64,000 nt of DNA from Acidipila sp. (GTDB lineage: Bacteria; Acidobacteriota; Terriglobia; Acidiferrales; UBA7541). Each line of letters opens with the position of its first letter. Position 1 is the stretch's first letter. The stretch lies in contig JAAFGT010000012.1 in NCBI GenBank assembly GCA_010365215.1, positions 1-64,000 on the forward strand, written 5' to 3'. Shown here piece by piece: positions 36,093 to 54,754 of this stretch. Made by a program: the position numbers and the translations under genes. Below the pieces are notes generated by a model. The model ran no database searches and was not told the DNA's origin. It saw only the letters and a program-made list of their open reading frames with translations.

Positions 36093-36093
36093 G

Positions 36094-37572
36094 TCAGTAC
36101 CATCCAATGGGTTGTTCATCAAGATTGATATACACCTGCTTGGTTTCCAGATACTCTTCGATGCCCCACGGGCCCAGCTCGCGGCCGAATCCAGACTGCT
36201 TGTAGCCCCCCCAGGGAGCTTCCACGTAGGTCGGCTGCATGTGATTCACCCAGATAATTCCCGCCTTCAATGCCTTGACCAGACGAAAGGCCTTGAAAAT
36301 ATCGCGGGACCACACCGCCGCAGCCAGTCCATAGGGCGTATCGTTCGCCACACGGATGGCTTCCGCTTCGTTCTCGAAGGGGATCACCGCGGCCACCGGA
36401 CCAAAGATTTCTTCGCGGGCGATACGCGCGCTGTTGGCCACATCATAAAAAATCGTAGGCTGAACGAAATAACCCTTGCCTCCATTCATGGCGCGTCCGC
36501 CGCCCGCGGCGAGCTTGGCCTCGCCTTTGCCCACCTCCATATAGTTCAGCACACGGTCAAATTGCTCCTTGCTGACCAGCGGCCCCATTTTCGTGTCGCG
36601 CTCCATCGGCGGGCCAAGCTTGATGCGCTTGGTTTTTTCCACCATGGCGTCGACAAATTTCTTGTAGATCGGTTTTTCCACCAGGATGCGGCTTCCCGCC
36701 GAGCACACCTCGCCCTGATTGATAAAAACGCCAAACAGCGCGCCATCGATGGCCGCCTCGAAATCCGCGTCGGCAAAGAAAATATTCGGCGACTTGCCGC
36801 CCAGCTCCAGGGTCACGCGCTTGACCGTGTCCGCCGCCATCTTTACAATTTTCTTGCCGACCTCCAGGCTACCCGTGAACGCCACCTTGTTCACCTGGGG
36901 ATGGCAGACCAAAGGCGCGCCGGCCGATTCCCCGAAACCGGTCACCACGTTCACTACGCCCGGCGGCACGCCGGCCTCTTCCAGCCACGCGGCAAACCGC
37001 AGCGCGGTGAGCGGCGTCTGTTCGGCGGGCTTGAGCACGCAGGTGCAACCCGCAGCGAGCGCCGGCGCCAACTTCCATGCCGCCATCAGCAGCGGGAAAT
37101 TCCACGGCACGATTTGCGCGGCCACGCCAATGGGCTCGCGCATCGACAAACTGAGCGCGTTGGCGGGCACGGGATTTACATGCCCCAGGACTTTGGTGGC
37201 CATGCCGCCGTAATACTCGAAGCAGGTCGCGGCGTCGGCCATGTCGTATTCGGACTCCACGATCGGCTTGCCGCAGTTGCGCGTCTCCAGCTCGGCAAGC
37301 TCCGGCGTATGCTTGCGGATGATGTCCGCGATGCGGAAAAGAACCTGCCCGCGAGCCTGCGGAGTGGACTGCGACCAGGGGCCCGAGTCGAACGCAGTGC
37401 GCGCTGCGTCAACGGCGGCGTCTACATCCTGACGGTTACCGTCCGCAACGTGGGCCAGCACTTCTTCGGTGGAGGGATCGTAAACCGGAAACGTCTTGCC
37501 GGAGAGGCTGTCCACGAACTTCCCGTTGATATACATCTGATATGTATCGACGCCTGCTTTCACACTGCTCAC
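36094..37572 (-). CDS. Aldehyde dehydrogenase, gamma-aminobutyraldehyde/betaine-aldehyde type
   Basis: About 492 residues. It has VPWNFPLLMAAWKLAPALAAG, TLELGGKSPNIFFADAD (catalytic Glu), and FINQGEVCSAGSR (catalytic Cys), with EEIFGPV and WGGYKQSGFGRE near the end. These match the ALDH9/BetB/PatD branch, which oxidises aminoaldehydes such as 4-aminobutanal to GABA. Start: GTG 37572 behind a GAGAGGTGG site. The open frame runs on to 38151, but that part overlaps the permease gene and has no ALDH features. Its product would feed the GabT-like enzyme encoded just after it. Confidence 0.9.
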   Translation of the reverse strand: MSSVKAGVDTYQMYINGKFVDSLSGKTFPVYDPSTEEVLAHVADGNRQDVDAAVDAARTAFDSGPWSQSTPQARGQVLFRIADIIRKHTPELAELETRNCGKPIVESEYDMADAATCFEYYGGMATKVLGHVNPVPANALSLSMREPIGVAAQIVPWNFPLLMAAWKLAPALAAGCTCVLKPAEQTPLTALRFAAWLEEAGVPPGVVNVVTGFGESAGAPLVCHPQVNKVAFTGSLEVGKKIVKMAADTVKRVTLELGGKSPNIFFADADFEAAIDGALFGVFINQGEVCSAGSRILVEKPIYKKFVDAMVEKTKRIKLGPPMERDTKMGPLVSKEQFDRVLNYMEVGKGEAKLAAGGGRAMNGGKGYFVQPTIFYDVANSARIAREEIFGPVAAVIPFENEAEAIRVANDTPYGLAAAVWSRDIFKAFRLVKALKAGIIWVNHMQPTYVEAPWGGYKQSGFGRELGPWGIEEYLETKQVYINLDEQPIGWY

Positions 37573-37593
37573 GGTTATCCACCTCTCGAACAA

Positions 37594-37653
37594 CGATGTT
37601 ACGGCCGCCGATGTTACGGCGACTGATGTTAAGACTATTAATGTTACGACGCC
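37594..37653 (-). repeat. Four-copy 15-bp tandem repeat between permease and dehydrogenase
   Basis: Four imperfect 15-bp units share a GATGTTA core (TAACATC on the minus strand). Each carries a TAA, and the first on the minus strand supplies the permease stop. It ends about 22 bp before the dehydrogenase start. Confidence 0.85.
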
Positions 37654-39086
37654 GCTGCCATTTGCGCGGCCTTGCGTCCGCCGTAGACAAAAAAGAAAAA
37701 CACCGCCATCCCGACAAAAAACAGCGTGCCGCCAGCCATCCACAGCTCGTAAGACCACACCGACTTGATCTGTTGAGCCGGGAAAAAAGCCAGTAGGATT
37801 CCCAATATCGTCGTGGCCAACCCACTGAAGCCGGCCAAGAGGAGTGTAGTCCTGCTGTAGTGGCCTTTCACATACGAATCGGCGCAGGCCAGTTTCAAAA
37901 GCGCGCCGAACATATAGATAAAAGGAATCAACTGCAGCACGACCGCGAGTGATAACAGCTTCTGAAAAGTTTCCTGCACTCCGGCGCCGGTAAACGTGAA
38001 ATTGATCACTACCAGAATCATGGAAACCACGGCGTGCACGATCAACGCGGCGTACGGCGTAGCGTATTTCGGATGCACCTTTCCCAGCCAGGCGGGCATG
38101 TACGAATCGAGACCGGCCACGAAGGGGATACGCGCCGAACCTCCCAGCCACGCGGAGCCGATTCCCGCGATGGAGAGGCTGAGCATCAGGGCGAACGGCA
38201 CCACGATCCAGCTTACCCCCACGCGTCCGGCCATGTGGCTGACCGCTTGCACGATTCCCTGCAAAACGTTAATGCTGTCCTTGCTCACCGCCACCAGCAG
38301 CGTCAGCGTAGCGCCGATATAGAGCAAACCTGAAAGCACGCCGCCCCAGGCCACCGCGCTGGGCAGAATTTTTTCAGGGTTCTCGATTTCGTCTCCCATG
38401 ATCGAGGCCAGCTCCAGGCCCACCAGGCCGAAGCAGATCACTCCGAAAGAGTTGAGAACGAATCGCGGGTTGGCGGGAATCTTGAAGTCGGCGGCGGTCA
38501 CGCTGGTGCCGAACCGCAGCCACACGGTAATGCCCAACCCGATCAGAAGAGCCGCGGCAATCCCTGTGCCGATGCCACCCACGTTGTTAATCCATTTCCC
38601 GACACCGAGACCGATTACGTTCAAAATTACCAGCACCGCAAGTAAAACGAGCGAGGAGCTGAGCGCGAAGAATTTGTTATCGGCCAGCGACTCGTGTCCA
38701 GCGCCCAGCGCAAAAACCGATACGCCGACGAAGTAGAGCATGATCGTCGGCACGTACAACATGTTGTTGGTCCAATAGCACCAGCCGGAGAGAAACCCGT
38801 GGAAGTCTCCGAAAACTTCCTTGGCCCAGAGGTACACGCCGCCCTCGCCGGGATAACGGTGCGCCAGTTCGATGACGGCAATTCCTTGCGGCCAGAAGAA
38901 CAGCGTCAGCGAAATAATCCACAGCCAGATGGTGACCCCGCCATTGGCCGCAATCGACGGAAGCACGTTGAGGTTGAAGACGGCCACCACAAACAGCAAC
39001 ACCAGGTCGCGGTGCCCTAGAACGCGTCGCAGATGCGGCCGCGCATCGCTCAAAGGCGCTGCCGGCGCCACGAGCGGCACGGTCAC
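37644..39086 (-). CDS. APC-superfamily amino acid/amine permease
   Basis: About 480 residues with 12 hydrophobic helices. ELAHRYPGEGGVYLWAKEVFG near helix 2-3 and FGLVGLELASIMGDEIENPEK are typical APC-superfamily segments. Such permeases exchange or import amino acids or polyamines, and the Glu-rich stretch is common in amine transporters. GTG 39086 (or the in-frame GTG at 39080) follows a GGGAGAGGGA site; the longer frame from 39152 adds a polar N-terminus. In this operon it could import an omega-amino acid for the aminotransferases. The stop lies in a 15-bp tandem repeat. Confidence 0.88.
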   Translation of the reverse strand: MTVPLVAPAAPLSDARPHLRRVLGHRDLVLLFVVAVFNLNVLPSIAANGGVTIWLWIISLTLFFWPQGIAVIELAHRYPGEGGVYLWAKEVFGDFHGFLSGWCYWTNNMLYVPTIMLYFVGVSVFALGAGHESLADNKFFALSSSLVLLAVLVILNVIGLGVGKWINNVGGIGTGIAAALLIGLGITVWLRFGTSVTAADFKIPANPRFVLNSFGVICFGLVGLELASIMGDEIENPEKILPSAVAWGGVLSGLLYIGATLTLLVAVSKDSINVLQGIVQAVSHMAGRVGVSWIVVPFALMLSLSIAGIGSAWLGGSARIPFVAGLDSYMPAWLGKVHPKYATPYAALIVHAVVSMILVVINFTFTGAGVQETFQKLLSLAVVLQLIPFIYMFGALLKLACADSYVKGHYSRTTLLLAGFSGLATTILGILLAFFPAQQIKSVWSYELWMAGGTLFFVGMAVFFFFVYGGRKAAQMAAAS

Positions 39087-39200
39087 TCCCTCTCCCAACG
39101 ATTTTCTCCAGTGTACTCTGTGAACTCTAAGTCGCGGCGCGCACGCGGCCATGCGGCAATCGTGGAAGTCAGCGCCGGCGGCGGAAGGCGCTCGAAAATC

Positions 39201-40583
39201 CTAGTGGCCCGCTGCGCCTACGAAAGCTACGCCGCGTTCCTGCTGCGCTTTGGCCAGGCCGGGCGCCACTTCTTCGAATGCGGCGAGGTGCTTATCAATA
39301 TCTTTCTCGGTGTGCTGCACGGAGATGGTCCACTGCTCGTCCCACCAATAGGGCTGCGCGAGCACGCCGCGGTTGACCATGCCGAACCAGTACTGCCGCC
39401 ACAGGTCCACATCGATCTTCATCCAGTCGCGGTAGTTGCGAATCTCCTGCGGATAAAGCATCAACGCGCCGTTTACTCCGGCGCGTGCCACATACGCCTG
39501 CAGTCCTGCCTTGCTCAGAATCTTGCGGTAGCCTGCGGCCAGCGTTTCGCCAAGCTTTTCTACGTGTGTATAGTTCGCGCGGGTGAGCACTTCGCGGAAG
39601 GTGGCGAGGCCGGCAGCCATGGCCACGCGATTGGTGTTGTACGTACCTCCGTGAAATACCTTATGTTGCGAAATCAGGTCCATGACTTCGCGGCTGGCGC
39701 CAAATGCGCCCAGCGGCACGCCGCCGCCGATCGATTTTGCCAGGCAGATAATGTCCGGCTTGACTCCGAAATATTCGCTGGCGCCGCCCCAGCAAAGCTT
39801 CGCGCCCGTTTTCACTTCATCGAAGATGAGCAGCGTGCCGTTCCTGGAGGCGATGTCGCGTAGTCCCTGCAGGAATCCCGGCTGCGGCATGCACAGCCCT
39901 ACGTTCATGAGGATTGGTTCCAGAATGATCGCCGCGATCTGTCCGGGATATTGCTTGAAGCGGTTCTCCACGCTGCCAAGATTATTGAAGGTGGCCACCA
40001 CCACATTATCCAAACTGGCTTTGGGCACGCCCATGCCGCCGGGAACGGAGTTTGGCGCGTTCTCGTTGCCGTAATCCTCTTCCTTGGGCTTGACGCTGAC
40101 CAGCGCCGTATCGTGCAGTCCGTGGTAGGCGCCTTCGAACTTCAATATTTTATCCCGCTTCGTCGCGGCGCGGGCGATGCGGCAGGCGTGCATGGTAACT
40201 TCCGTGCCGCTGGAGCCGAAGCGCACCATATCCACGGGGTAGCGCGCGCAAATTTCTTCGGCCAGCTCCCACTCCATGTCGTGCGGCATGCCGAAAGTCG
40301 TTCCGATTTTCAGCGCGTTCTCGATGGCTTTCACTACCGCCGGATGAATATGCCCGGCCATCAGGGTGCCGAAACACAGGTTATGGTCAATATATTCGTT
40401 GCCGTCCAGATCGGTGAGCTTGCTGCCCTTGGCTTCTTTTACGAAAAGTGGATAAGGATCGTACGCGCGGTAGTTGCTGGCTACGCCTAGAGGGATGCGC
40501 TTCAGCGCCCGCTGGTGCGCTCCTTTTGATTTTGGCGTGCGCTTTTCATACGTCTGAATTTCCTTCTGAAGGATTTCGTGCAT
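39201..40583 (-). CDS. Class III aminotransferase (glutamate-1-semialdehyde aminomutase-like)
   Basis: 460 residues. It has VRFGSSGTEVTMHACRIARA, EGAYHGLHD, LIFDEVKTGAK and CLAKSIGGGVPLGAFG (PLP Lys), the pattern of HemL-like class III enzymes. True HemL makes 5-aminolevulinate. Here the gene follows TonB receptor 3 and precedes an amine permease and dehydrogenase, so an omega- or beta-amino-acid transaminase role is more likely. Its C-terminus (about 390-460), with DLWRQYWFGMVNRGV and PYWWDEQW, resembles aminomutase-like paralogues. ATG 40583 has an AAGGAGA site. Confidence 0.88.
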   Translation of the reverse strand: MHEILQKEIQTYEKRTPKSKGAHQRALKRIPLGVASNYRAYDPYPLFVKEAKGSKLTDLDGNEYIDHNLCFGTLMAGHIHPAVVKAIENALKIGTTFGMPHDMEWELAEEICARYPVDMVRFGSSGTEVTMHACRIARAATKRDKILKFEGAYHGLHDTALVSVKPKEEDYGNENAPNSVPGGMGVPKASLDNVVVATFNNLGSVENRFKQYPGQIAAIILEPILMNVGLCMPQPGFLQGLRDIASRNGTLLIFDEVKTGAKLCWGGASEYFGVKPDIICLAKSIGGGVPLGAFGASREVMDLISQHKVFHGGTYNTNRVAMAAGLATFREVLTRANYTHVEKLGETLAAGYRKILSKAGLQAYVARAGVNGALMLYPQEIRNYRDWMKIDVDLWRQYWFGMVNRGVLAQPYWWDEQWTISVQHTEKDIDKHLAAFEEVAPGLAKAQQERGVAFVGAAGH

Positions 40584-40646
40584 GGATCGTCTCCTTGCGA
40601 ACCTGAAGCAATCTCTCCGCACAAACACTGGTGACCAGAAGCCTGG

Positions 40647-40750: not shown

Positions 40751-43700
40751 TTAGAAAAACAGCTTCAACGCAAACTGAATGAGCCGCGGCTGCTGGGCAC
40801 GCAGCACTTTGCCGAAGGCCACGCCGCCGTTGGCGTTTTCGGTGATGTCCCCCTGCACACCGATAAACTGCGTATGGTTGAACACATTGAAAAATTCGGT
40901 GCGGAATTCCACCCGGAACCGGTCGTTAATGGGCGTCTGTTTGTGAAGGGCGATGTCGAAATTATTTATGCCCGGGCTGCAGCAGAGCGTGCGCGGCGAA
41001 CTCCCGGTCACCCCCAGCGTGGCGGGTACGGCGAAAAGATTCGGGTCGAACAAGAGATTCGATACCGGCGTGCACGGAGTAGCTGTGCCGCTGGTTGGGC
41101 CGGTACCCTGCGCGCATCCACCTTGTCGCGGGTCTTGCGTGTGGAACTTGCCCAACAGGTCCGGCTGGCCTGGGGACTCAAAGTCGAAGCTCCCCAGCAA
41201 CTCCGTATCCGACGAGTTGGAAATCAGCCGGATCGGGAATCCCGATTGGAAAGTGGCGATCCCAGAGAACGCCCACCCGTTCAGCGCCTTGCCGGCGAAT
41301 CCGGACATCTTGGGAACCGGCAGCTCGTAGAAATAACTAAAAACAAAGCGGTGGCGCGCGTCGAACAGCGACAGAGAACGCGACCTGCGGAAGTCTAGGG
41401 GATTGAGCGTATTCTCGAAACTCGATGCGTTGTCGATTGATTTACTGAGCGTGTACGCGCCCTGGAACTGCAGGCCGTGTGTAAAATGCTTTTCGACCAG
41501 CATCTGCAAAGAGTTGTAGTTGGAATTAGCGATAGTGTCCTGCGTAAAAATGTTTGAAAACACGGAAGTGTCGTCCGCCGGACATCCCGCGCCCGTAAAT
41601 GGGTCGCACAATGGCGAGGAGTACCGCCTGATGCCCACCAGGGTAATTCCATTGGGTCCCACAACGGTGCCGCCGGGGATCAGCGCCGGCCCTCCGCCAT
41701 TCGAACTGTAAGGCAGGTGGAAGCCGCTTGCAGGGATCACCGTTCCGGCGGGAATCGTGTAACGGACACTGTCTTCGCCGCCAGGGCCGCACGTGCCGGG
41801 TCCCAGAGTGTCATTCAGATCCAGGCAGGTTTGGGGGTTTCCCGGGTTCAGGTCGTAGGTGGCCAGCAACCGGTGACCCTGCGAGCCAACATAGCCTATC
41901 TGAAACAGGATGTTGCCGGGCAGTTCGCGCTGAATGGTCAAATTATACTGCTCGGAATACTGCGCCCGCATGTGCGGCTGGAACTGGCCGAACAACAGAA
42001 TGGGCCGGAATGTAGACATATCAACCGGCTGGCCTCGCGGCGGATTCAGAATCCCATTGGCGGCGTTGGGAATCACCCCGCCGGACTGGGTTACGAAGGG
42101 CGTGCTGAAAAGGCCGTTGAACACTGCAGAGCTGACTCCGAAGGGCGGCTCGGCCTGAAACTGCTCGAAAACAAGTTGTTCGATGGGATTGTAAAATATT
42201 CCATAGCCCATGCGAATGCTCGTCTTGCCCGTCGAGCCGAATAGGGAGTGCAGGAATCCTTCCTTGAAGTCCGGGCTATAGGCCAGGCCGATGCGTGGGC
42301 TGAACGCTTTGTAGTAGCTCTGCGTCAGGCCCCGGGGCACGCCGGGATCTCCGGGCACCAACAGGCCTCGCGGAGCGACACCGGCCGCAAAACAATCAGA
42401 GCTGGTGACCCCGAGAGTCGCCTGGCTTGCCGCGGAAAGCGCGCATGGGAATACCTTCGAATCCTGACCGGGCCGGAACACCTGAACGCGGTTGCCCGTG
42501 TCATACATCGGGTTGGTGAACTCCCACCGCAAACCGTAATTCAGCGTGAGATTGGGTTTGATCTTCCAGCTATCCTGAGCGAATAAATACAGCGCCTGGT
42601 TGCGCACGTTTTCGGTGTTCGCCGAGCCCTGCAGGTAACTCGTCGGCAGGCCGAGAAGATAATTCGGGTAGGAGTCCACGGAGCCGACCGTGCTGGCGGT
42701 ACTGCTCCCGGCACTGGAAAAAATAAAGCTGCCGTTGACGTTGAAGAATAGCGTCTGGTCGAATTTCTGAATGCGGAAATCACCGCCAAACTTCACACTG
42801 TGATTGCCAATCACCTTGGAATAGTTGTCGCTAAACTGAAAGGTGTTACCGGTCTGAACGAATTGGCCTTCAAAGTTGTTTCCGATAGTGAAGCCGCCAT
42901 TCACGCCGATCAGAGGCACGCCCTCGAATTGCGACCCGAGGTTGGGCGTGATTCCGTGCTTGGGATCAGCGGGGATAGGAGCACCACTCGAATCTACCAA
43001 CTGGGTGTCCGAGGTCCCCGTAAAACAGGACGGCAGCGCCGCCGCGCTGACGCAGGACTGCGTAACCAGATTCGTGCGCACCGGCTTGTTAAAGGTGGGC
43101 TCCGCTTCACGGAAATAGGAAAACCGGAACTCATTCACCGCGTTGGCGCCCAGCGTCCAGGTGTGGCTGATGTTCAGCTGCTGTGTGCGGTTCTTGAATG
43201 TTCCGCCAAAATTTCCGAGGTTGGCGCCGGCTGCCTGGAAAACGGCGAAGGGATCGAGCGCCCGATCGTCGGAAAAGAAATAGTACGCGCTCAGATTCTG
43301 CTTGCTGTTGATCGAGTGATCGAGCTTCACGCTGAACTGGTCCGAAAAGTCACTGGCGTTGGGAACACCCTGAAACACGTTATTGGGTTGATTCGCTGCG
43401 GGCAAAAAACGCAGCAGGTCTACCGAAACCGGGTCGAAGCACTGCACCGGAACGATGGCGCCCGGAAAAATATTCGCGTAGGGCGTGGGAGTGCCGGCCA
43501 CCGCCGCAGCCAGAGCGGTCATCCCGGCCGGAGTCAAGTTTGCGTTGCATCGGTTGGACAGTATGTTGGCCACGGTTACGTCGTTTACTGCACCCGTGAA
43601 ATCCCCCCCAGCGGAAAAATCTCCGCCCAACTCCTGCGCCGTGGGCAGGGTAACTTGCGGCGACGATTTTCCGTGGATCTGCCGGCTGCCCTGGTAGTCG

Positions 43701-44593
43701 GCGAAGAAAAAGGTCCGGTTCTTTCTGATCGGGCCGCCAAACGTGCCACCGAACTGGTTTTGCTTGAAGTCGGGCTTGACGGAGTCGAGAAATCCTCTGG
43801 CGTTGAGCGCCTTGTTCCGGAAAAATTCAAACAGGTTGCCGTGAAATTCGTTGGTACCGGACTTGGTGACCACATTCACCACCGCGCCGGAGTTTCGCCC
43901 GTATTCCGCGTCGAAAGTATTCGTCAGCACGCGGAACTCGGCGATGGCGTCGGGTGAAGGCTGCACCGCCGGGAGATTCGCAAAAAGATCGTTGCCGTCG
44001 CCGCCGTTCACGCTGTAGTTATTGGAGCGCCCGCGGCCACCGTTGACGCTGACCACGCCCGCTTTGTCGCTGCCATAAAACAGGTCAATGCCCACCTGGG
44101 ACTGCACCCCTGGCTGCAGTTGGAGAAGCTGGTACGTATCGCGCGCGCTCAAGGGAAGGTTGCTCACCGCGCGTTCGTTGACCACCGCGCCCAGCTGCGT
44201 GCTGGTGGTGTCTACGACGGTGGCCTCCGTGGTCACCACCACCTGCTCGGTCTTCTGTCCGATCTGCATCACCACGTCCACGCGCTTTACTTCAGTGATC
44301 GCCAGCGCTACGCCTTTGACGAGGTTCTGCTTGAAGCCGGCGGAATCCACTTGGACGGTGTACACGCCAACGGGCACTTCCAGCAAAGTGTAATTACCCG
44401 ACTCGTTGGTTTCCGTGGTACGCGCAATTCCCGTGGCTTCATTGGTCAGAACGATCTTCGCGCCGGCAATGACGCCGCCGTTCTGGTCCGTCACCGTGCC
44501 CAGGAATCTGCCCCCGGTGGTCTGCCCCCACGCCGCCCCGGAAAGCGCCATCACGCACAGCAGTCCCACCACACCACGCAGAATGCACCTCAT
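40751..44593 (-). CDS. Oar-type TonB-dependent outer-membrane receptor 3
   Basis: 1280 residues, the longest of the three. A signal peptide (1-23, ending AAWGQ) is followed by a carboxypeptidase-regulatory-like domain (VPVGVYTVQVDSAGF), a plug (VVNVVTKSGTNEFHGNLFEFF) and a beta-barrel ending FALKLFF. ATG 44593 has an AGGGGGCGGG site. It heads the minus-strand run of aminotransferase, permease, dehydrogenase and transaminase genes, so its ligand may be an amine-containing compound. It is divergent from the fusion regulator, and their promoters overlap. Confidence 0.93.
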   Translation of the reverse strand: MRCILRGVVGLLCVMALSGAAWGQTTGGRFLGTVTDQNGGVIAGAKIVLTNEATGIARTTETNESGNYTLLEVPVGVYTVQVDSAGFKQNLVKGVALAITEVKRVDVVMQIGQKTEQVVVTTEATVVDTTSTQLGAVVNERAVSNLPLSARDTYQLLQLQPGVQSQVGIDLFYGSDKAGVVSVNGGRGRSNNYSVNGGDGNDLFANLPAVQPSPDAIAEFRVLTNTFDAEYGRNSGAVVNVVTKSGTNEFHGNLFEFFRNKALNARGFLDSVKPDFKQNQFGGTFGGPIRKNRTFFFADYQGSRQIHGKSSPQVTLPTAQELGGDFSAGGDFTGAVNDVTVANILSNRCNANLTPAGMTALAAAVAGTPTPYANIFPGAIVPVQCFDPVSVDLLRFLPAANQPNNVFQGVPNASDFSDQFSVKLDHSINSKQNLSAYYFFSDDRALDPFAVFQAAGANLGNFGGTFKNRTQQLNISHTWTLGANAVNEFRFSYFREAEPTFNKPVRTNLVTQSCVSAAALPSCFTGTSDTQLVDSSGAPIPADPKHGITPNLGSQFEGVPLIGVNGGFTIGNNFEGQFVQTGNTFQFSDNYSKVIGNHSVKFGGDFRIQKFDQTLFFNVNGSFIFSSAGSSTASTVGSVDSYPNYLLGLPTSYLQGSANTENVRNQALYLFAQDSWKIKPNLTLNYGLRWEFTNPMYDTGNRVQVFRPGQDSKVFPCALSAASQATLGVTSSDCFAAGVAPRGLLVPGDPGVPRGLTQSYYKAFSPRIGLAYSPDFKEGFLHSLFGSTGKTSIRMGYGIFYNPIEQLVFEQFQAEPPFGVSSAVFNGLFSTPFVTQSGGVIPNAANGILNPPRGQPVDMSTFRPILLFGQFQPHMRAQYSEQYNLTIQRELPGNILFQIGYVGSQGHRLLATYDLNPGNPQTCLDLNDTLGPGTCGPGGEDSVRYTIPAGTVIPASGFHLPYSSNGGGPALIPGGTVVGPNGITLVGIRRYSSPLCDPFTGAGCPADDTSVFSNIFTQDTIANSNYNSLQMLVEKHFTHGLQFQGAYTLSKSIDNASSFENTLNPLDFRRSRSLSLFDARHRFVFSYFYELPVPKMSGFAGKALNGWAFSGIATFQSGFPIRLISNSSDTELLGSFDFESPGQPDLLGKFHTQDPRQGGCAQGTGPTSGTATPCTPVSNLLFDPNLFAVPATLGVTGSSPRTLCCSPGINNFDIALHKQTPINDRFRVEFRTEFFNVFNHTQFIGVQGDITENANGGVAFGKVLRAQQPRLIQFALKLFF

Positions 44594-44613: not shown

Positions 44614-44636
44614 CGCCACCCCGTGGCGCGTTTTTT
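44614..44636 (+). terminator. Rho-independent-like hairpin in the receptor 3 leader
   Basis: CGCCAC-CCC-GTGGCG (44614-44628) is followed by CG and six T on the plus strand. It lies in the 5' untranslated region of receptor 3, which is read on the other strand, and may stop antisense or incoming plus-strand transcription before the regulator promoter. Confidence 0.5.
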
Positions 44637-44650
44637 CTGGAAGTTTCGTG

Positions 44651-44680
44651 TTGCGTCCGCTAAATAAACCTTACTATAAT
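44651..44680 (+). promoter_or_regulatory. Promoter of the fusion regulator
   Basis: -35-like TTGCGT (44651-44656), an 18-bp spacer and a perfect -10 TATAAT (44675-44680). Predicted transcription starts about 44687, before both candidate start codons of the regulator. Confidence 0.6.
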
Positions 44681-44691
44681 CCGCGAAGGTT
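44667..44691. promoter_or_regulatory. Inverted repeat shared by two divergent promoters, candidate operator
   Basis: AACCTT-N13-AAGGTT. Its centre covers the -10 of the plus promoter and its right arm covers the -10 of the minus promoter, so one bound protein could control both. The adjacent MerR-XRE-cupin protein is the likely binder. Confidence 0.5.
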
Positions 44692-44715
44692 AGGATACGC
44701 CTCCGGCGTTGTCAA
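44687..44715 (-). promoter_or_regulatory. Promoter of TonB receptor 3 and downstream genes
   Basis: Minus strand: perfect -35 TTGACA (44710-44715), 17-bp spacer and a weak -10 TAACCT (44687-44692). A weak -10 under a consensus -35 is common in activator-dependent or repressed promoters. Receptor 1 also uses TTGACA within a CCTTGACAA context. Confidence 0.5.
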
Positions 44716-44780
44716 GGAAAAATGTCACCAGAAAAGGCCGCTTGCCCAAGCCCGCTCGCAAACCCGGAAAAACGCCGCGA

Positions 44781-45569
44781 ATGAACGCCCCCTTGCGCAT
44801 TGGGGACGTCGCGCGACGCGTCGGCGTCTCTCCGTCGGTGCTGCGCACCTGGGAGGGCCTCGGCCTTGTCCACCCGCGACGCACCGGCAATCATTACCGC
44901 CTGTACACACCGGGGGATCTGCGCCTGCTCAAGCGCGCACGCTATTTGCGGCGCGTGCGCGGGTTGAATCCTCGCGCGGTGGTCCACGTGTTGCGAAGCC
45001 AGGGACTCCTTGCCGCCTCGGCGCCCGCTCCCCCTGTGCCTCTCGGTTCGCGACTGAGAAGGTTGCGACTCGAGCGCAAATTATCGCTCTCACGAGTGGC
45101 CGAGGCATGCGACGTTTCCGTCGGTTTTCTGAGCGCGATCGAGCGCGGGCAGATGAGCGCCGCAGTAGGAACGCTGCGCCGTCTGGCCCGTTTTTACAAT
45201 CTGAACATTCTGGCCCTGTTCGAGCCGCCCGAAGGCAACCCTCATCGCGTGCAGCGAAAAGAGCGCAAGGTTCTCGAAGCCGGACCCGGTGTGCGCATGG
45301 AACTGCTGGCCTGGGGCAATACGGTAATGGAGCCGCACCTGTTTCGTATCGCACCGGGCAGCGGCAGTGGCGAGGCGTACGCCCACGAGGGCGAAGAATT
45401 TCTCCATATATTGCAAGGCCGTCTGGAGATCACACTGAATGGCGGCACCCGGTACAAGCTTGGCCAGGGAGACAGTTTTTATTTTGAGAGCAACTTGCCG
45501 CATCGCTGGATCAACCCGGGAAAAAACCAGACGCTAGTGCTCTGGGTGAACACGCCGCCGACATTTTGA
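44781..45569 (+). CDS. MerR-XRE-cupin three-domain transcriptional regulator
   Basis: 262 residues from ATG 44781 (a TTG at 44709 would add 24). There are three domains in order. A MerR-type helix-turn-helix (1-75) has LRIGDVARRVGVSPSVLRTWE. An XRE-type helix-turn-helix (about 87-147) has LRRLRLERKLSLSRVAEACDV and FLSAIERG. A cupin_2 ligand domain (about 165-262) has EGEEFLHILQGRLEI and DSFYFESNLPHRW. XRE-cupin proteins such as PuuR sense polyamines or related amines. An extra MerR head is unusual. It sits between the TonB/aminotransferase genes and the Pot/amine-oxidase genes and probably controls both. Confidence 0.85.
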   Translation: MNAPLRIGDVARRVGVSPSVLRTWEGLGLVHPRRTGNHYRLYTPGDLRLLKRARYLRRVRGLNPRAVVHVLRSQGLLAASAPAPPVPLGSRLRRLRLERKLSLSRVAEACDVSVGFLSAIERGQMSAAVGTLRRLARFYNLNILALFEPPEGNPHRVQRKERKVLEAGPGVRMELLAWGNTVMEPHLFRIAPGSGSGEAYAHEGEEFLHILQGRLEITLNGGTRYKLGQGDSFYFESNLPHRWINPGKNQTLVLWVNTPPTF

Positions 45570-45637: not shown

Positions 45638-47386
45638 ATGACGATGAAGCGACGATTGGCATTTGCCGCGCTGGTCTGCGTGCTGTTCCTCCCTGCCCTA
45701 TCGAAATCAGCGGAGCTCGCCCCCGCGGACACGATCGTGTTGAACGGCAAGATCTACACAGTGAACACTGCGCAACCTATGGCAGAGGCGCTGGCAATCA
45801 TCGACGGCAAAATCGTCGCGGTTGGCAGCAGCAAGGAAATCGGTCGCTATCGCGGGCCGAAGACCCAAGTCATCGACGCCGGCGGCCGGCTCGTCTTGCC
45901 CGGATTTACTGACTGCCATACGCATTTTCTCAGTGGAGCTTTGTCGCTCGGCCAAGTTCAGCTTGACGGCACCACCTCGGTTCCCCAGATACAGGAACGG
46001 GTGCGCAAATATGTTACTGCGCACCCGGGAAAGGGCTGGGTGCTCGGGCGCGGATGGAACTATGCAGCGTTCGGCGCCACGGCACTACCCGACAAGAAGG
46101 ATCTCGACGCCATCGTCCCGGACCGTCCCGTATTTCTCGAAGGCTACGACGGTCACACCTACTGGGCAAACAGTAAAGCGTTGGAAATGGCCGGCGTAAC
46201 AAAGGCCACGCCCGACCCACCCAACGGGACGATCGTGCGCGATCCGCAAACCGGTGAAGCAACAGGGGCGCTGAAGGAAGCAGCAACGCGGGTAGTCGCG
46301 CGAGTTGTACCCAAGAGCAATCGCGCAGAGATGCTCGCTGCACTTCGCCAGGGCTTGGCCGAAGCCAATCGCGTGGGCGTAGTGCGCGCACACAGCGCCG
46401 GCGGGGATTTCGAGCACTTCGATCTTTACGATGAGCTAAACCGCAGCGGCAACCTGACCGTGCGTATGTATATCGCCTATTTCCTCAATCCTCCGGAGTT
46501 GACCACCAAGGAGATCGAAACCATCGAGGCTGCCCGCAAGCGCTACAACGGTGAATTTCTATCCAACGGCGCCGTGAAAATGATGCTGGATGGCGTCGTG
46601 GAATCTCATACTGCGGTAATGCTCCAGCCTTACAGCGACGACGCTCACTTCATCGGCAAAATGTTCTGGGACGCTGCGAAGTATAAGGCTGCCGTGGCCG
46701 AGCTCGACCGCCGGGGACTGCAACTCTTCACCCATGCCATCGGCGACGCGGCCGTGCGGCTGGCGCTGGATTCATACGAAAATGCAGCGGCCGCCAACCA
46801 TACCAGCGACGCCCGCCCGCGCATCGAGCACATCGAAACGGTCACCGCGGCGGATATTCCGCGATTCGGCAAGCTCGGCGTAATCGCCAGCATGCAGCCG
46901 CTCCACGCCTATCCCGATGACGACACGCTAAACGTCTGGGCGCGAAATGCCGGAGCGGATCGCGCATCGAGAGCCTGGGTATGGCAGAGCATTGCTGGCA
47001 GCGGCGGTCGCCTTGCTTACGGCAGCGACTGGCCGGTGGTCACGATAAATCCCTGGGACGGTGTGCAAAATGCGGTTACACGCCAAACGAAGGACGGCAA
47101 GCCGGCCGGCGGTTGGGTGCCGGCTGAGCGCGTAAGCCTGGCGCAAGCCATCGAGGCCTACACTCTGGGCGCGGCGTTCGCCGGAAGGCGGGAGAAAACC
47201 GAAGGCTCCCTCGAATCCGGCAAAGTTGCAGACCTGATCGTGCTCGATCAGAACCTTTTTGAGATTGATCCGCACAAGATCAGCCAGACACAAGTTTTGC
47301 TGACGCTGGTCGGAGGAAAGACCGTATACCGTGCGCCAAACTGGAAGGCGGCGGCGGAACGGCGGTCCGAGGAAGCTGTTCGATGA
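45638..47386 (+). CDS. YtcJ-like metal-dependent amidohydrolase
   Basis: 582 residues. A signal peptide (about 1-24) is followed by an amidohydrolase_3 fold. [13 protein letters not shown] supplies the first two metal His, [11 protein letters not shown] the bridging region, [10 protein letters not shown] another His, and YGSDWPV the late Asp. The family removes formyl or amide groups from substituted amines and cyclic ureides. ATG 45638 has a GGGAGAG site. It is coupled by ATGA to the PotD-like gene, so it could release an amine outside the cytoplasm for uptake. The substrate is inferred only from context. Confidence 0.87.
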
Positions 47387-48504
47387 AGCGTCGGCTATCC
47401 GCTCTCTGCACTGTCGCGAGCACTTTCGTGAGCACGGTCGCGAGCGCTGTTATGAGCGCTGTCGCAATCATTATTGTAACTGTTCTCGCGGCCAGCTCTT
47501 GCGGCAAGGCTGTGCCCACGCTCAGCCTGCTGGTGTGGGAAGGCTATGCCGACCCGAGTTTTGTGCGCGCATTCGAAGAGTCGCACAAATGTAAAGTAGT
47601 GGCCTCGTACATGGGTTCGAGTGATGAACTGGTAGCCAAGCTGCGCGGTGGCAGCGCCTCGAATTATGATGTGATCTCACCGTCAAGCGACGTGGCGGCC
47701 ATGATCGCCACCACCGGTCTGGCCGCGCCGCTCGACCTATCAAAACTGGCTGCTTACCCGCAACTCTCGCCGAAGCTGCGCGACCTGCCTCTAGTGCGTA
47801 TCGGCGACAAAGTCTTTGGCGTCCCGTTCATGTGGGGGCCAAACCCCTTGCTGTACGACACCTCCGCATTTCCTAAGCCGCCGGAAAGTTGGGGCGTGCT
47901 GTGGGACCCCAAGCTGAAGGGCAAGATTTCGGTGTGGGACGATCTTTCAACTCTTTACATGGCCGCGCAGATTCTGGGCTACGACAAACCCGATCCCTCG
48001 CACCTCTACAACCTCAGCGATCAGGAACTTGCCGCGGTCAAAGCGAAACTCCTCGAGCTCAAGCCCAATGTACGGAAAATCTGGGCCACGGGTGGCGAGT
48101 TAACCAACCTTTTTCAAAATCACGAAATTGTGTTGGCCATGGGCTGGCCATTGATGACCAATCAGCTTCGAAAGTTGAACTTCCCTATCGGAGAGACCAT
48201 TCCAAGGGAGAACACCACCGGCTGGATCGATCACCTGATGATTACTGCGGCCAGCGAGCGCAAGGATCTGGCCCATGAGTTTCTGGAATACATGATCGAG
48301 GCGCAGACTCAATCGAAAGTCACCGGCGTTACCGGTTATGTGCCCGCCAACCCGCGCGCCGCCGAGCGGATGAGCGCAGCGGAAAAAGCCAGTTTGCATC
48401 TCGACGATCCCGACCAGTATATGGCGCGCATCTATTTTTGGCAGAATGTGCCGCGGCGCGACAAATATAACGAAGTTTGGAATGAGGTAAAGGCCGCGCA
48501 GTAG
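47383..48504 (+). CDS. potD: Periplasmic polyamine-binding protein (PotD-like)
   Basis: 373 residues. An extended signal with a likely lipidation Cys (VLAASSCGK) is followed by a type II periplasmic binding fold with LSLLVWEGYADPSFVRAFE, VPFMWGPNPLLYD, and KGKISVWDD, as in PotD/PotF. It would capture spermidine, putrescine or a related amine and hand it to PotB/C. The signal's hydrophobic part contains a 24-bp tandem repeat (two TVAS-starting eight-residue units). The gene starts by an ATGA overlap with the amidohydrolase and leads the PotA, B, C genes. Confidence 0.9.
   Translation: MKRRLSALCTVASTFVSTVASAVMSAVAIIIVTVLAASSCGKAVPTLSLLVWEGYADPSFVRAFEESHKCKVVASYMGSSDELVAKLRGGSASNYDVISPSSDVAAMIATTGLAAPLDLSKLAAYPQLSPKLRDLPLVRIGDKVFGVPFMWGPNPLLYDTSAFPKPPESWGVLWDPKLKGKISVWDDLSTLYMAAQILGYDKPDPSHLYNLSDQELAAVKAKLLELKPNVRKIWATGGELTNLFQNHEIVLAMGWPLMTNQLRKLNFPIGETIPRENTTGWIDHLMITAASERKDLAHEFLEYMIEAQTQSKVTGVTGYVPANPRAAERMSAAEKASLHLDDPDQYMARIYFWQNVPRRDKYNEVWNEVKAAQ
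47410..47457 (+). repeat. 24-bp tandem repeat in the PotD-like signal peptide
   Basis: Two 24-bp units (47410-47433, 47434-47457), in frame, encode TVASTFVS and TVASAVMS; a partial third follows. The result is an unusually long hydrophobic signal. Confidence 0.75.
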
Positions 48505-48517
48505 CGCCGCGCCAATC

Positions 48518-49699
48518 GTGCCACCGAGTTTGGCCACCGAGTTTGGCCACCGGCACCGGATCCGGCAACCGAGTTTGACTTTGAAGACCTACGCCAAACC
48601 CCCTGCGAAAGAATGGGACCATGACGCCTCAACAACTGCTCGGGCGGGCGCTGACCCGCTGCTAGAAGTTCGTCACGTGGCCAAACGTTTTGGCGGCCGC
48701 GAGGTGCTTCGCGATATTTCGCTTGACGTGGCCTCTGGAGAATTCCTCACCATCCTGGGCGAGAGCGGATCGGGCAAAACCACGCTGTTGCGGCTGATCG
48801 CCGGATTCGAACAGCCCAGCAACGGCGAAATCTGGATGTCCGGCGAACGGCTGGATACACAACCTCCTTACCGCAGGCGCGTCAACACCGTCTTCCAGAG
48901 CTATGCCCTTTTTCCTCACCTCACCGTAGCGGAAAACGTTGCTTACGGTATGCGCGTGCAAGGCGTGCCGCGCGCCGAGATCCCGCCGCGCGTTGCCGAG
49001 GCCTTGGCCATGGTGAAGATGAGCGCTAGCGCGGAAACTCCGCCGGCCCGACTGAGCGGCGGAATGCAGCAGCGCGTGGCGCTGGCCCGCGCGCTGGTCA
49101 ACCGCCCGAAGCTGCTGCTGCTCGATGAGCCTCTTTCCGCGCTCGACGCCAACCTGCGAAGGCAGATGCAAACGGAGTTGAAAGCGCTGCAGCGCGAGAT
49201 CGGCATCACATTTTTATTTGTCACCCACGATCAGGACGAAGCCATGGCGCTCTCCGACCGCATCGCCCTGCTTCGCGCCGGCGCGCTGGAACAGATCGCC
49301 TCGCCTCGCGAAATTTATAATTCGCCAACCAGCGCCTACACCGCTCAGTTTATCGGCCAGACAAATTTGCTGACCGCGCAAGTCTCCGGCGGGACGGCGC
49401 GAGCCGGGTGCTTACTCTGGCCGTGTGCCGCGCCGGAAGGGCCGGCAACATTTTCACTTCGCCCGGAGCATATCCGTCTGGTGGATGGAGCATCGGGCGG
49501 CAACCCTGCAAGCTGCCGGTTCCGCGCCAAACTCGAGAACCAAACCTTCTGCGGCTCCACCGATATGCTGGAAATCGTGTCTCCCGATGGACAGCATCTA
49601 CGCGTGCGCGTGCCTAGCCGGGGAATCCTCGAGGACGAGGTAGACCTGGAATTTTCCGCCAAGGATTGCGTTCGCCTTCGCGATGCGGGGAGCTCTTAG
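48518..49699 (+). CDS. potA: Polyamine ABC transporter ATPase (PotA-like)
   Basis: 393 residues; the conserved ABC domain starts near residue 48. Walker A is GESGSGKTTLLR, the Q-loop is VFQSYALFPHLTV, the signature is LSGGMQQRVALAR, Walker B is LLLLDEPLSALD, the H-loop is VTHDQDEA, and a TOBE-type C-terminal domain follows. It energises uptake by PotB/C. The start is uncertain: the GTG at 48518 lies in a 13-bp tandem repeat and lacks a ribosome site, while TTG codons at 48575 or 48581 are alternatives that keep the domain. Confidence 0.9.
   Translation: MPPSLATEFGHRHRIRQPSLTLKTYAKPPAKEWDHDASTTARAGADPLLEVRHVAKRFGGREVLRDISLDVASGEFLTILGESGSGKTTLLRLIAGFEQPSNGEIWMSGERLDTQPPYRRRVNTVFQSYALFPHLTVAENVAYGMRVQGVPRAEIPPRVAEALAMVKMSASAETPPARLSGGMQQRVALARALVNRPKLLLLDEPLSALDANLRRQMQTELKALQREIGITFLFVTHDQDEAMALSDRIALLRAGALEQIASPREIYNSPTSAYTAQFIGQTNLLTAQVSGGTARAGCLLWPCAAPEGPATFSLRPEHIRLVDGASGGNPASCRFRAKLENQTFCGSTDMLEIVSPDGQHLRVRVPSRGILEDEVDLEFSAKDCVRLRDAGSS
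48520..48577 (+). repeat. 13-bp tandem repeat around the PotA-like start
   Basis: Two exact GCCACCGAGTTTG units (48520-48532, 48533-48545), a partial unit, then a diverged copy at 48565-48577. The period is not a multiple of three, so copy number would shift the frame of any start upstream of it. Confidence 0.75.
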
Positions 49700-49701
49700 C
49701 G

Positions 49702-50547
49702 GTGTATTCACGCGCCTACAAGCTCGCCATTTCCCTTCCGCCACTTGCCTGGGTAACTCTGTTTCTTCTGGCACCCTACGCGCTTATGTTTATGCACAGC
49801 TTCTGGACGGTGCAAGACAATCAGATCGTGCACACCTGGAGCCTGAACAACTACGCGAAGCTTGTCGCCAGCCCCGTCTATGTGCAGGTGCTGCTGCGCT
49901 CGATGTGGATCGCCGCGCGCGTCACCCTGTTTGCTTTGCTGCTCGGTTATCCGCTGGCGTATTTCCTCTCCTTCCATGCGGGCCCGCGCAAGGAGCTGCT
50001 CTATCAGTTGGTGATCGTTCCGCTCTGGGTCAGTTACCTGGTGCGGGGTTACGCCTGGAAAACAATTCTGGGCGGCGACGGCGTGCTGAATGGGCTTCTG
50101 CAATTCTTGCACATCACTCAGCACCCCGTGGAATTTCTGCTTTATAGCCCCTTCGCTGTGGTTCTGACTCTGACGCACATCTATACGCCATTCACTTTTC
50201 TGCCCATCTATGCGTCGCTCGAGCATATTCCGCGCAACCTGGTGGAGGCTTCGCAAGATCTCGGCGCCTCGCCTCGCGCCACTTTTTGGCGCGTGATCCT
50301 GCCGCTCTCCGTGCCGGGACTTCTCGCCGGCGCTACGTTTGCTTTTGTGCTCACGCTCGGCGATTTTCTGGCTCCGATTCTGGTTGGCGGACCTGGCGGA
50401 ACCATGATTTCCAATATCGTGCAGACGCTTTTTGGCGCAGCGTACCAGTGGCCGCTGGGATCGGCGATTGCCGTTTGCATCCTGGTGCTGGTCCTCGGTC
50501 TGCTGTTCGCCACCGAGCGTGTGGAACGTAAGTGGACGTTTTCATGA
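49702..50547 (+). CDS. potB: Polyamine ABC transporter permease (PotB-like)
   Basis: 281 residues with six helices. It has the LAPYALMFMHSF first helix and the EAA loop LVEASQDLGASPRATFWRVILP, which docks the ATPase. PotB/PotC pairs form the membrane channel of the spermidine/putrescine system. GTG 49702 begins just after the ATPase stop at 49699, with GGGGAGC upstream. An earlier in-frame ATG at 49666 lies inside the ATPase gene. The end overlaps the next permease by ATGA at 50544-50547. Confidence 0.92.
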   Translation: MYSRAYKLAISLPPLAWVTLFLLAPYALMFMHSFWTVQDNQIVHTWSLNNYAKLVASPVYVQVLLRSMWIAARVTLFALLLGYPLAYFLSFHAGPRKELLYQLVIVPLWVSYLVRGYAWKTILGGDGVLNGLLQFLHITQHPVEFLLYSPFAVVLTLTHIYTPFTFLPIYASLEHIPRNLVEASQDLGASPRATFWRVILPLSVPGLLAGATFAFVLTLGDFLAPILVGGPGGTMISNIVQTLFGAAYQWPLGSAIAVCILVLVLGLLFATERVERKWTFS

Positions 50548-51395
50548 GCGCCGCCGCACCGCAACCTCGCACCAAGGCAGGCGGGCTGGGGATTTACGCC
50601 GCTGCCGTATTTGCATTTCTCTATTTCCCGATCGTCGTGCTGGTGATCTACTCGTTCAACGGCGCGGGCGTGGGCGGCTTTCCGCCTCGCAACCTGACCC
50701 TGGAGTGGTACCGCATCCTTTTCAGCGACCGCGCCATCTGGGACGCGGTGCTCAACAGCGTTATTGTTGCGCTGGCTGCGGTGATGATCGCGCTATCCCT
50801 CGGACTTCCAGCAGCGCTGGCCCTCGACCGCGTATCTTTTCCAGGTAAAGCCCTGTTCCGCCGTCTGGTGCTGCTGCCGCTGATTTTGCCCGGCATCATT
50901 ACCGGGCTCTCGCTGCTGATGTTCGTACGCTACACCGGGCAGAAGCTGAGCCTGCTCACCGTAATCCTCGGCCATGGCACGGCGCTGATTTCCGTGGCCA
51001 CCACCGAGCTCTTCGCCGGACTGCAAAAAATGGATCGCGCGCAGGAAGAAGCATCCCTGGACCTCGGGGCCAATTACTGGCAGACGTTCTGGCGCGTCAC
51101 GCTGCCCAACCTGAGCCTTCCCCTGGCGGCCGCCGGCCTGTTGATTTTTACCCTCTCCATGGACGAGATCGCCGTCACTTTCTTTCTGATCGGGCGCGAT
51201 AATACTCTGCCTTTGGAAATCTGGGGACGCCTGCGCCGCGGGATGACACCGGAAATCAACGCCATCTCCACGCTTATTTTTATCTTCTCCGTCGCTCTGA
51301 TTCTTTTCTGGTATCACCTGCGCACACGCGGCCAAAGCAGCGCAGAACCTCTCTTGGCAGCCGAGCCGGAATCCTTTCAAGGAAAATTACGATGA
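50544..51395 (+). CDS. potC: Polyamine ABC transporter permease (PotC-like)
   Basis: 283 residues with six helices. A PotC-type first helix (FAFLYFPIVVLVIYSFNG) is followed by the EAA segment EEASLDLGANYWQTFWRVTLPN. It pairs with PotB. ATG 50544 is chosen because it forms an ATGA overlap; the GTG at 50532 would extend 12 bp into PotB. The stop overlaps the amine-oxidase gene by ATGA at 51392, so all Pot genes and the oxidase are one translation-coupled operon. Confidence 0.92.
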   Translation: MSAAAPQPRTKAGGLGIYAAAVFAFLYFPIVVLVIYSFNGAGVGGFPPRNLTLEWYRILFSDRAIWDAVLNSVIVALAAVMIALSLGLPAALALDRVSFPGKALFRRLVLLPLILPGIITGLSLLMFVRYTGQKLSLLTVILGHGTALISVATTELFAGLQKMDRAQEEASLDLGANYWQTFWRVTLPNLSLPLAAAGLLIFTLSMDEIAVTFFLIGRDNTLPLEIWGRLRRGMTPEINAISTLIFIFSVALILFWYHLRTRGQSSAEPLLAAEPESFQGKLR

Positions 51396-52918
51396 CCCAG
51401 TCACGCAGGGACTTTATCAAGTTTGTCGTTGCCGGCTCGGTGGTGGCCGGTTGCCCGATCGACCAGACGCTGGTTGCGGCGCCGCCCCCGGAGGCCAGTG
51501 TCCATGGAGAGCACAACGAAATCTGCCACGCCGTGCGCGACGGCCAGCGCTTCGACAGGCCACCCGTCTCTCGCCGCGCAGACGTAGTCATCGTCGGCGG
51601 CGGCGTAAGCGGCCTCTCCGCTGCCTACTTCCTGCAGAAATATAATTTTCTGCTTCTCGAGAAAGAACCGCATTGGGGCGGCAATGCGTACGTGGAAGAA
51701 TTTGAAGGGCAAGTGTATGGCACAGGCAGCGCGTTCGAAAGCATGGACACACCGGGCACTCACCTCGCCGCCGAACTGGGCATGAAGATGCTTCGCGTCG
51801 ACGATCCTGACCCCACATTGGTGCATGGAACTTGGGTTGCCGACACGTGGCGTACCGGGCTGGATCATCTGCCCTATCCACCGGCCGTGCGCCGCAGCTT
51901 CAAAGCATTCCGCGACTCCATGATGAAAATAGATGTTGCCGCACGCAAAGAGGAACTCGATAACCAGCCTTTTTCCAAATATACATCGGGGTACGCCCGG
52001 CAGATTTCACAGTGGTGGGATGGCTATGGCCCGTCCAATTGGGGCGCGAAGACAAAAGACACCTCCGCGTTCGTGGCTCTGGAGAGTCTTCAGTCCATCG
52101 CCGGTGACCGGCCCGACGACCGCATCACCTGGCCCGGAGGACTTGGGGCCATCACCAAGACGCTCTCCGAACTCCTGCTGCGCAGCAGGTCCGAAAGCAT
52201 GGTGTCCGCAGCGACGGTAGTCGCCGTCGAGCCACAGAAGGACGAAGTGCACATCACGTATGCACGCGAAGGGAAGATGGAAACGGTCGCAGCACGCGCA
52301 GTCATCATGGCGACGCCGAAGTTTATTACCTGGAGGCTGGTGGCGGGGATCCCGGAGGCGCAAATCGCGGCGATGCGCAAGATCCGCTATATTCCCTATC
52401 CCGTGGTGAACCTCATTTTCGACAAGCCGGTCTACCGCCGCGCCTACGATACCTGGTGCCCCGGCAACGCCTTTACGGATTTCGTCGTCGCCGATTGGAC
52501 CATCCGCAACGAAGTTGGTTACAAACCAAAATACAACATCCTGAGCTGTTACACGCCGCTGCAGGAGTTTGAACGTGGCCGCCTGTTGACTGAGGAAGGA
52601 TCGCGCGAGCTCGCTGCTAACGTGCTGCGCGATTTTCAGAAGCTGCTGCCCGCATTCCGCACCGACCCGCTGGAGGTGCATATCTACCGCCGCGGCCACC
52701 CCATGTTCATGTCCACCCCCGGCAACTACACCGCCACGATTCCAGTGGCGCGGGTGCCGTTGGAACGCGTCTTCTTCGGCAATGCGGATTCTGCAGGACC
52801 TGAATCTTTGACTTCGGGAGCAATCGCCGCATCCCGGATGGGCGCGGACTGGGTGGAGAAACTATTGGCCGGTGCGCCGCGCGCCTCGGTCCTGCGCGCT
52901 TCCCGTTGCCCGGCTTAA
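51392..52918 (+). CDS. Tat-exported FAD-dependent amine oxidase/dehydrogenase
   Basis: 508 residues. A Tat signal SRRDFIKFVVAG (5-16) is followed by the dinucleotide fold VVIVGGGVSGLSAAYFL, then LLEKEPHWGGNA, and a C-terminal flavin contact in which SAGPESLTSGAIAASRMGADW replaces the usual GEH…GTVEGA. This is the amine-oxidase or spermidine-dehydrogenase type, oxidising polyamines to aminoaldehydes in the periplasm. The Tat export, the coupling to PotC and the aminobutyraldehyde dehydrogenase nearby support polyamine catabolism. The exact substrate and electron acceptor are not visible. Confidence 0.85.
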   Translation: MTQSRRDFIKFVVAGSVVAGCPIDQTLVAAPPPEASVHGEHNEICHAVRDGQRFDRPPVSRRADVVIVGGGVSGLSAAYFLQKYNFLLLEKEPHWGGNAYVEEFEGQVYGTGSAFESMDTPGTHLAAELGMKMLRVDDPDPTLVHGTWVADTWRTGLDHLPYPPAVRRSFKAFRDSMMKIDVAARKEELDNQPFSKYTSGYARQISQWWDGYGPSNWGAKTKDTSAFVALESLQSIAGDRPDDRITWPGGLGAITKTLSELLLRSRSESMVSAATVVAVEPQKDEVHITYAREGKMETVAARAVIMATPKFITWRLVAGIPEAQIAAMRKIRYIPYPVVNLIFDKPVYRRAYDTWCPGNAFTDFVVADWTIRNEVGYKPKYNILSCYTPLQEFERGRLLTEEGSRELAANVLRDFQKLLPAFRTDPLEVHIYRRGHPMFMSTPGNYTATIPVARVPLERVFFGNADSAGPESLTSGAIAASRMGADWVEKLLAGAPRASVLRASRCPA

Positions 52919-54633: not shown

Positions 54634-54754
54634 GCAGAACTCAGGCTATCCCAGCCGCCGCCGCGCGGCAACTTGCAGAGGCGTAAGCGTTATCACCAGC
54701 CGCAAGCCCGCGCGAGGCTTGGAGGAACGGCGGGAGTCTTGTACTCTTTTGGCG

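Follow-up and report, generated by a model that had tools for sequence, protein, structure and literature searches.

The regulator gene described here lies in a window of 64,000 nucleotides (the whole stretch of DNA analyzed) from Acidipila sp., between two sets of genes on opposite strands. On the minus strand, the divergent gene encodes an outer-membrane beta-barrel receptor with a CarboxypepD_reg domain (40751-44593; PF25183, PF13620), and beyond it are genes for a class III, HemL/GntE-like aminotransferase in conserved synteny (39201-40628), a GadC-like APC-family amine/amino-acid permease (37644-39152), an aldehyde dehydrogenase of the betaine-aldehyde/aminobutyraldehyde type that scored below curated cut-offs (36094-37602), a 4-aminobutyrate transaminase (34728-36122; TIGR00700, 566.6 bits, cut-off 506.65), and a CoA-acylating (methyl)malonate-semialdehyde dehydrogenase (33172-34677; TIGR01722, 628 bits, cut-off 448.5). 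On the plus strand are an amidohydrolase gene (Amidohydro_3; 45638-47386), which about half of the loci compared lack at this point, the genes potD-potA-potB-potC of a polyamine-type ABC transporter in conserved synteny (47383-51395), whose binding protein matches the PotD/PotF/YdcS families, and the gene of a flavin amine oxidoreductase (51392-52918; PF01593). The best-fitting models for the aminotransferase at 39201-40628 are those of glutamate-1-semialdehyde aminomutase and the GntE type, not GABA transaminase, and few enzymes of the cluster are as well conserved. Just past the amine oxidoreductase, a carbon-nitrogen hydrolase gene (54329-55669) and an ORF with a LuxR-type HTH (53926-54633) overlap on opposite strands.

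The regulator is encoded on the plus strand in one continuous reading frame at 44709-45569, present as a single copy in its own 4.1 Mb genome. The frame is not an assembly join, as nearly all of 80 other Acidobacteriota loci match it over the full length at ~59-71% identity. In the numbering from 44709, Pfam placed MerR_1 (PF13411) at residues 30-97 with an E value of 1.3e-16 and 60.8 bits against a gathering threshold of 21.6, HTH_3 (PF01381) at residues 116-167 (E 2.6e-13), and Cupin_2 (PF07883) at residues 211-280 (E 8.3e-21), all three far above chance and cut-off. A second MerR model, PF00376, also matched the head (E 7.9e-12), so that the winged helix that marks the MerR family is present by two profiles. 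A single protein thus joins a MerR winged-helix head, an XRE helix-turn-helix and a PuuR-like cupin, and the original prediction of a complete MerR domain ahead of XRE and cupin stands, its profile check on the protein head having returned a significant match.

The start codon is likely to differ from the one first proposed. The TTG at 44709 sits within a conserved non-coding promoter element, TGTCAAGG, and the stretch around it, TTGTCAAGG, is kept upstream of the gene in relatives, where it falls in other reading frames. Because this upstream conservation is outside the coding frame, the ATG at 44781 is the likelier start, giving a protein of 262 residues (44781-45569) that begins immediately ahead of the MerR head (residues 6-73; 44796-44999). 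The head is followed by a flexible, variable linker (45000-45041), the XRE domain (45054-45209) and the cupin sensor domain (45339-45548).

Matches to proteins of known structure divided in the same way: the front part matched by sequence the MerR-type heads of CarH, BrlR, CueR and SoxR, and the remainder DdrO (6rnz) and the HTH_3-family regulator 1y9q, the latter by fold as well. In NCBIfam, PuuR was the best match of the C-terminal two thirds, at 77.8 bits, below the cut-off of 211 for membership of that equivalog. The order XRE then Cupin_2 is that of XRE-cupin repressors, with the XRE domain not N-terminal here, as the MerR head precedes it. An AlphaFold2 monomer model (mean pLDDT 83.9, pTM 0.44) comprised the winged-helix head with its helices and wing, a 14-residue linker of low confidence (pLDDT <50 at residues 80-85), a five-helix XRE domain and a cupin barrel, with the relative placement of the domains undefined. 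In this monomer model, no long antiparallel coiled-coil dimerization helix of the MerR type followed the head, whose last helix ends at residue 73. In a fold search with the full model, cupins and HppE-type enzymes took up the results, so that the MerR head was barely tested; the evidence for the head is the sequence profile. In the homologue alignment, mean column entropies were 0.86 and 0.87 bits for the two DNA-binding domains, 0.82 for the cupin and 2.25 for the linker; since the two DNA-binding domains are equally conserved, neither looks vestigial. In the cupin (262-residue numbering, region 200-241), His202, Glu206 and His241 are possible metal ligands, Tyr200 takes the place of the first His found in many cupins, and all four residues are invariant in the alignments.

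The distribution of homologues revealed that the fusion, far from being a local oddity, belongs to a family spanning Acidobacteriota and Alphaproteobacteria. A scan of named genomes found 80 acidobacterial loci with proteins 49-71% identical to the regulator, the closest named relatives at the locus being Acidobacteriota (Terriglobia) MAGs, and a strong match was present in 15 of the 396 genomes sampled from the phylum. Outside Acidobacteriota the distribution is that in a plasmid collection, where tblastn returned 119 records with one place covering at least 80% of the query; among the matches listed these were mainly from Rhizobiaceae, at ~35-40% identity, and several are annotated in RefSeq/GenBank as 'MerR family transcriptional regulator'. 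In all six homologues scanned with Pfam, MerR_1 was followed by an XRE-type HTH and then by Cupin_2, each above cut-off. Judged from these acidobacterial loci, plasmid matches and sampled genomes, the MerR-XRE-cupin architecture is an established, widespread family rather than a local accident. No description of such a regulator was found in a search of mostly open-access literature, and the family is apparently an unstudied, MerR-headed variant of the XRE-cupin repressors.

The gene neighborhood is conserved along with the protein. The order receptor, regulator and pot operon, with the receptor divergent, recurs in most of a set of ten relatives, within the reach of their contigs, and almost throughout those of the 80 loci that have enough sequence; among the 80, the receptor is directly divergent in 75, potD lies downstream in 54, and the amidohydrolase is directly downstream in 37. 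The proposed position between two arms of a polyamine/GABA program is upheld, with synteny kept in dozens of genomes. In rhizobia, the homologue on Sinorhizobium meliloti pSymB is divergent from gabT and gabD, that of Agrobacterium vitis is divergent from gabT, and that of Shinella adjoins pot ABC genes and an aldehyde dehydrogenase gene. Together with the acidobacterial synteny, these neighbors lend support in two phyla to a polyamine/GABA link of the regulator family.

When the DNA upstream of the gene was aligned for 11 relatives, a block next to the regulator gene proved invariant. Of the close homologues, 77 have upstream sequence, and in essentially all of these the block AACCTTrCTATAAT-N5-AAnnTTA stood directly 5' of the gene, usually in the form AACCTTGC-TATAATCCC-GCAAGGTT, followed by TTAGAGAA and, ~12-18 bp further, TGTCAAG. 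Three loci were without it, two of which (L054 and L122) had no or too little upstream sequence, the third (L123) being distant (49%). A weighted profile gave 100% conservation for AACCTT, for TATAAT and for the C two bases after AACCTT, a value slightly favored by the search since the loci were aligned on the motif itself, and both flanks were at background conservation. In the window, the predicted operator AACCTTACTATAATCCGCGAAGGTT occupies 44667-44691 as a dyad, AACCTT-N13-AAGGTT, with a single exact copy in its own genome. Among 61 genomes, the pattern with at most one mismatch occurred exactly once in 11 of 11 relatives with a close regulator and in none of the 50 without. Co-presence with the regulator is expected of DNA beside a gene; what is informative is that 25 bp of non-coding DNA are almost completely constrained in sequence and that no second copy occurs. 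With no further copies of the operator, a regulon beyond the locus is not claimed. An RNA element was rejected, with no Rfam match in 30000-56000 and a dyad that spans the predicted transcription starts.

Two opposed promoters are predicted to meet at this block. P_reg (44651-44680, plus strand) has a -35 box TTGCGT (44651-44656), an 18-bp spacer and a -10 box TATAAT (44675-44680), and in the aligned loci TATAAT has TTGnnn 15-18 bp upstream and reads toward the regulator. P_div (44687-44715, minus strand), with a -35 box TTGACA (44715-44710), a 17-bp spacer and a -10 box TAACCT (44692-44687), reads toward the receptor; its elements TGTCAA and AnnTTA are conserved 17 bp (43 cases) or 18 bp (30 cases) apart in 73 of 77 sequences. 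A strict consensus promoter scan called neither promoter, and the -35 box of P_reg is weak. The dyad covers or touches both predicted -10 boxes, so that one bound protein would block both promoters. The right half-site varies (GG, AC, CG or CC), and part of its conservation would thus be explained by the -10 box of P_div. DNA looping between divergent promoters, which the original prediction had suggested, was rejected, as a second site is absent in both the window and the genome and the single operator is sited at the overlap of the two promoters. A plus-strand hairpin followed by a T run (44614-44638), lying between the promoters and the start of the receptor gene, resembles a terminator, but only at chance level.

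Other arrangements were seen upstream of some homologues. Two loci, L118 and L120, contain the dyad twice in tandem, complete or in part (AACCTTGCTATAATTCCGGAAGGTTAGGCCTTACTATAATTGTGTAAGGTTAG in L118), which suggests local operator duplication. The AACCTT dyad was not recognizable upstream of rhizobial or distant acidobacterial homologues, and transfer of the operator to these groups was rejected on that ground. Four rhizobial loci (L028, L030, L031 and L032) have in common a different A/T-rich upstream stretch around TACAT or its complement (e.g. GAAAAATCTCTACATTTTTTCGG), which may be the operator of that branch.

One draft genome, G028, provides a natural deletion, and is a single case. It keeps the aminotransferase, permease, dehydrogenase, amidohydrolase and pot genes, with the regulator and receptor missing between them, and at the deletion site (L162, G028:C189, 7230-7520) the old P_reg directly precedes the amidohydrolase-pot arm. 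Of the intergenic elements, the P_reg part AAACCTTACTATAAATCTG survives there, but neither the right half-site nor the P_div box TTGACA does. The pattern fits P_reg driving the pot arm, and would also fit a right half-site that persists only if required by the regulator or by the promoter of the receptor.

Starting from the domains, the synteny, the single conserved operator-like block and the promoter-like boxes, we consider it rather probable that the protein is a local, autoregulating, ligand-relieved repressor of the XRE-cupin kind acting over both arms. The regulator would be a dimer, probably held by XRE/cupin contacts, with its two MerR heads on the half-sites AACCTTrC and GCAAGGTT (44667-44691), covering the -10 boxes of the opposed P_reg and P_div. 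The arm read from P_reg would extend over the regulator, amidohydrolase, potDABC and amine oxidoreductase genes, and that read from P_div over the outer-membrane receptor, aminotransferase, permease and aldehyde dehydrogenase genes. A polyamine-pathway amine or a GABA-related compound bound to the cupin would cause release, and both arms would be expressed together; by means of this single site the regulator probably switches polyamine uptake and breakdown on and off together. We infer repression from the predicted spacers of 15-18 bp and from the Pseudomonas precedent: in MerR-activated promoters the boxes are set 19-20 bp apart on either side of the dyad, and one published 17-bp spacer has been read as possibly repression only (PMC1526738, PMC5045206), whereas the characterized XRE-cupin factors of Pseudomonas act as repressors, bound for the most part to core promoters adjacent to the genes that encode them (PMC7901475). 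The heads are suggested as readers of the dyad by the likeness of the half-site ACCTTGC/GCAAGGT to the published CueR site, ACCTTCCC-(5)-TGGAAGGT, in what would be a wider dimer geometry, the half-sites here being separated by 9 bp and those of the CueR site by 5 bp.

That both unlike folds read this site is a tentative refinement of the repressor model, and our confidence in the two overlaps. Here the MerR heads would take the AACCTTrC/GCAAGGTT arms and an XRE pair either the center, TATAATCC, or the flanking TTAGAGAA/TGTCAAG. Invariance of the central TATAAT goes beyond the need of a -10 box alone, conservation reaches into TTAGAGAA, and both domains are equally constrained around a flexible linker; however, TATAAT, TAAnnT and TTGACA are all explicable as promoter boxes, and the covariation of protein and DNA that might assign domains to bases is dominated by clade differences and confounded by phylogeny. 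A distinct class of regulator, in which two folds jointly read one composite site to lock two opposed promoters, is in our view possible but less likely than not. We give a little more credence, short of expecting it, to binding by one DNA-binding domain alone, the other making a dimer or RNA-polymerase contact, a reading also compatible with the preferred repressor model. In the XRE recognition helix, the acidobacterial and rhizobial groups have different residues, and the MerR head is better kept, but within Acidobacteriota both domains are equally conserved, recognition helices included.

An activator of the MerR type, which would twist promoter DNA and activate transcription upon ligand binding, accords with a true winged-helix head with a conserved wing and with half-sites that resemble CueR sites. 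We regard it as unlikely, since the dyad lies over the -10 box and not between boxes, the spacers are not those of MerR activation, and the head is followed by a linker and the XRE domain with no MerR dimerization coiled coil predicted. It is very improbable that the invariant block is read by another protein while the regulator acts elsewhere: the block is confined, among the 61 genomes, to those with the regulator, always next to it, is degraded in the one genome that has the pathway without the regulator, and lies in a region with no Rfam match.

A regulator family for which no described function was found thereby gains a set of concrete predictions, comprising an operator, the genes it would control and candidate ligands, and the use of polyamines and GABA in uncultured soil Acidobacteriota gains a functional handle. 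Were both domains to read the site, this would be an unusual route to specificity for a single genome address and a possible two-sided switch for amine sensing, with one binding event controlling both arms of the catabolic program.

Among known systems, the XRE-cupin repressors (PuuR of E. coli; PauR, PsdR and ErfA of Pseudomonas) have the XRE and cupin order in common with the regulator, and are alike in that PuuR is the best C-terminal family match, in polyamine/GABA neighbors and in apparently local action; they differ in that the regulator has an extra MerR head in front and a PuuR score of 77.8 against a cut-off of 211. The rhizobial proteins annotated as MerR family regulators in S. meliloti pSymB and A. 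vitis have the same three domains in the same order and are likewise divergent from a GABA transaminase gene, but are only 35-40% identical and lack the AACCTT dyad upstream. CueR and HmrR of the MerR family have in common with the regulator the winged-helix head and the ACCTT..AAGGT half-sites of the dyad, whereas the regulator is without the coiled-coil dimer helix and the 19-20 bp promoter spacer, and its half-sites stand 9 bp apart compared to 3-5 bp in those proteins. The predicted operator of the regulator, a single site serving two promoters, is unusually clear.
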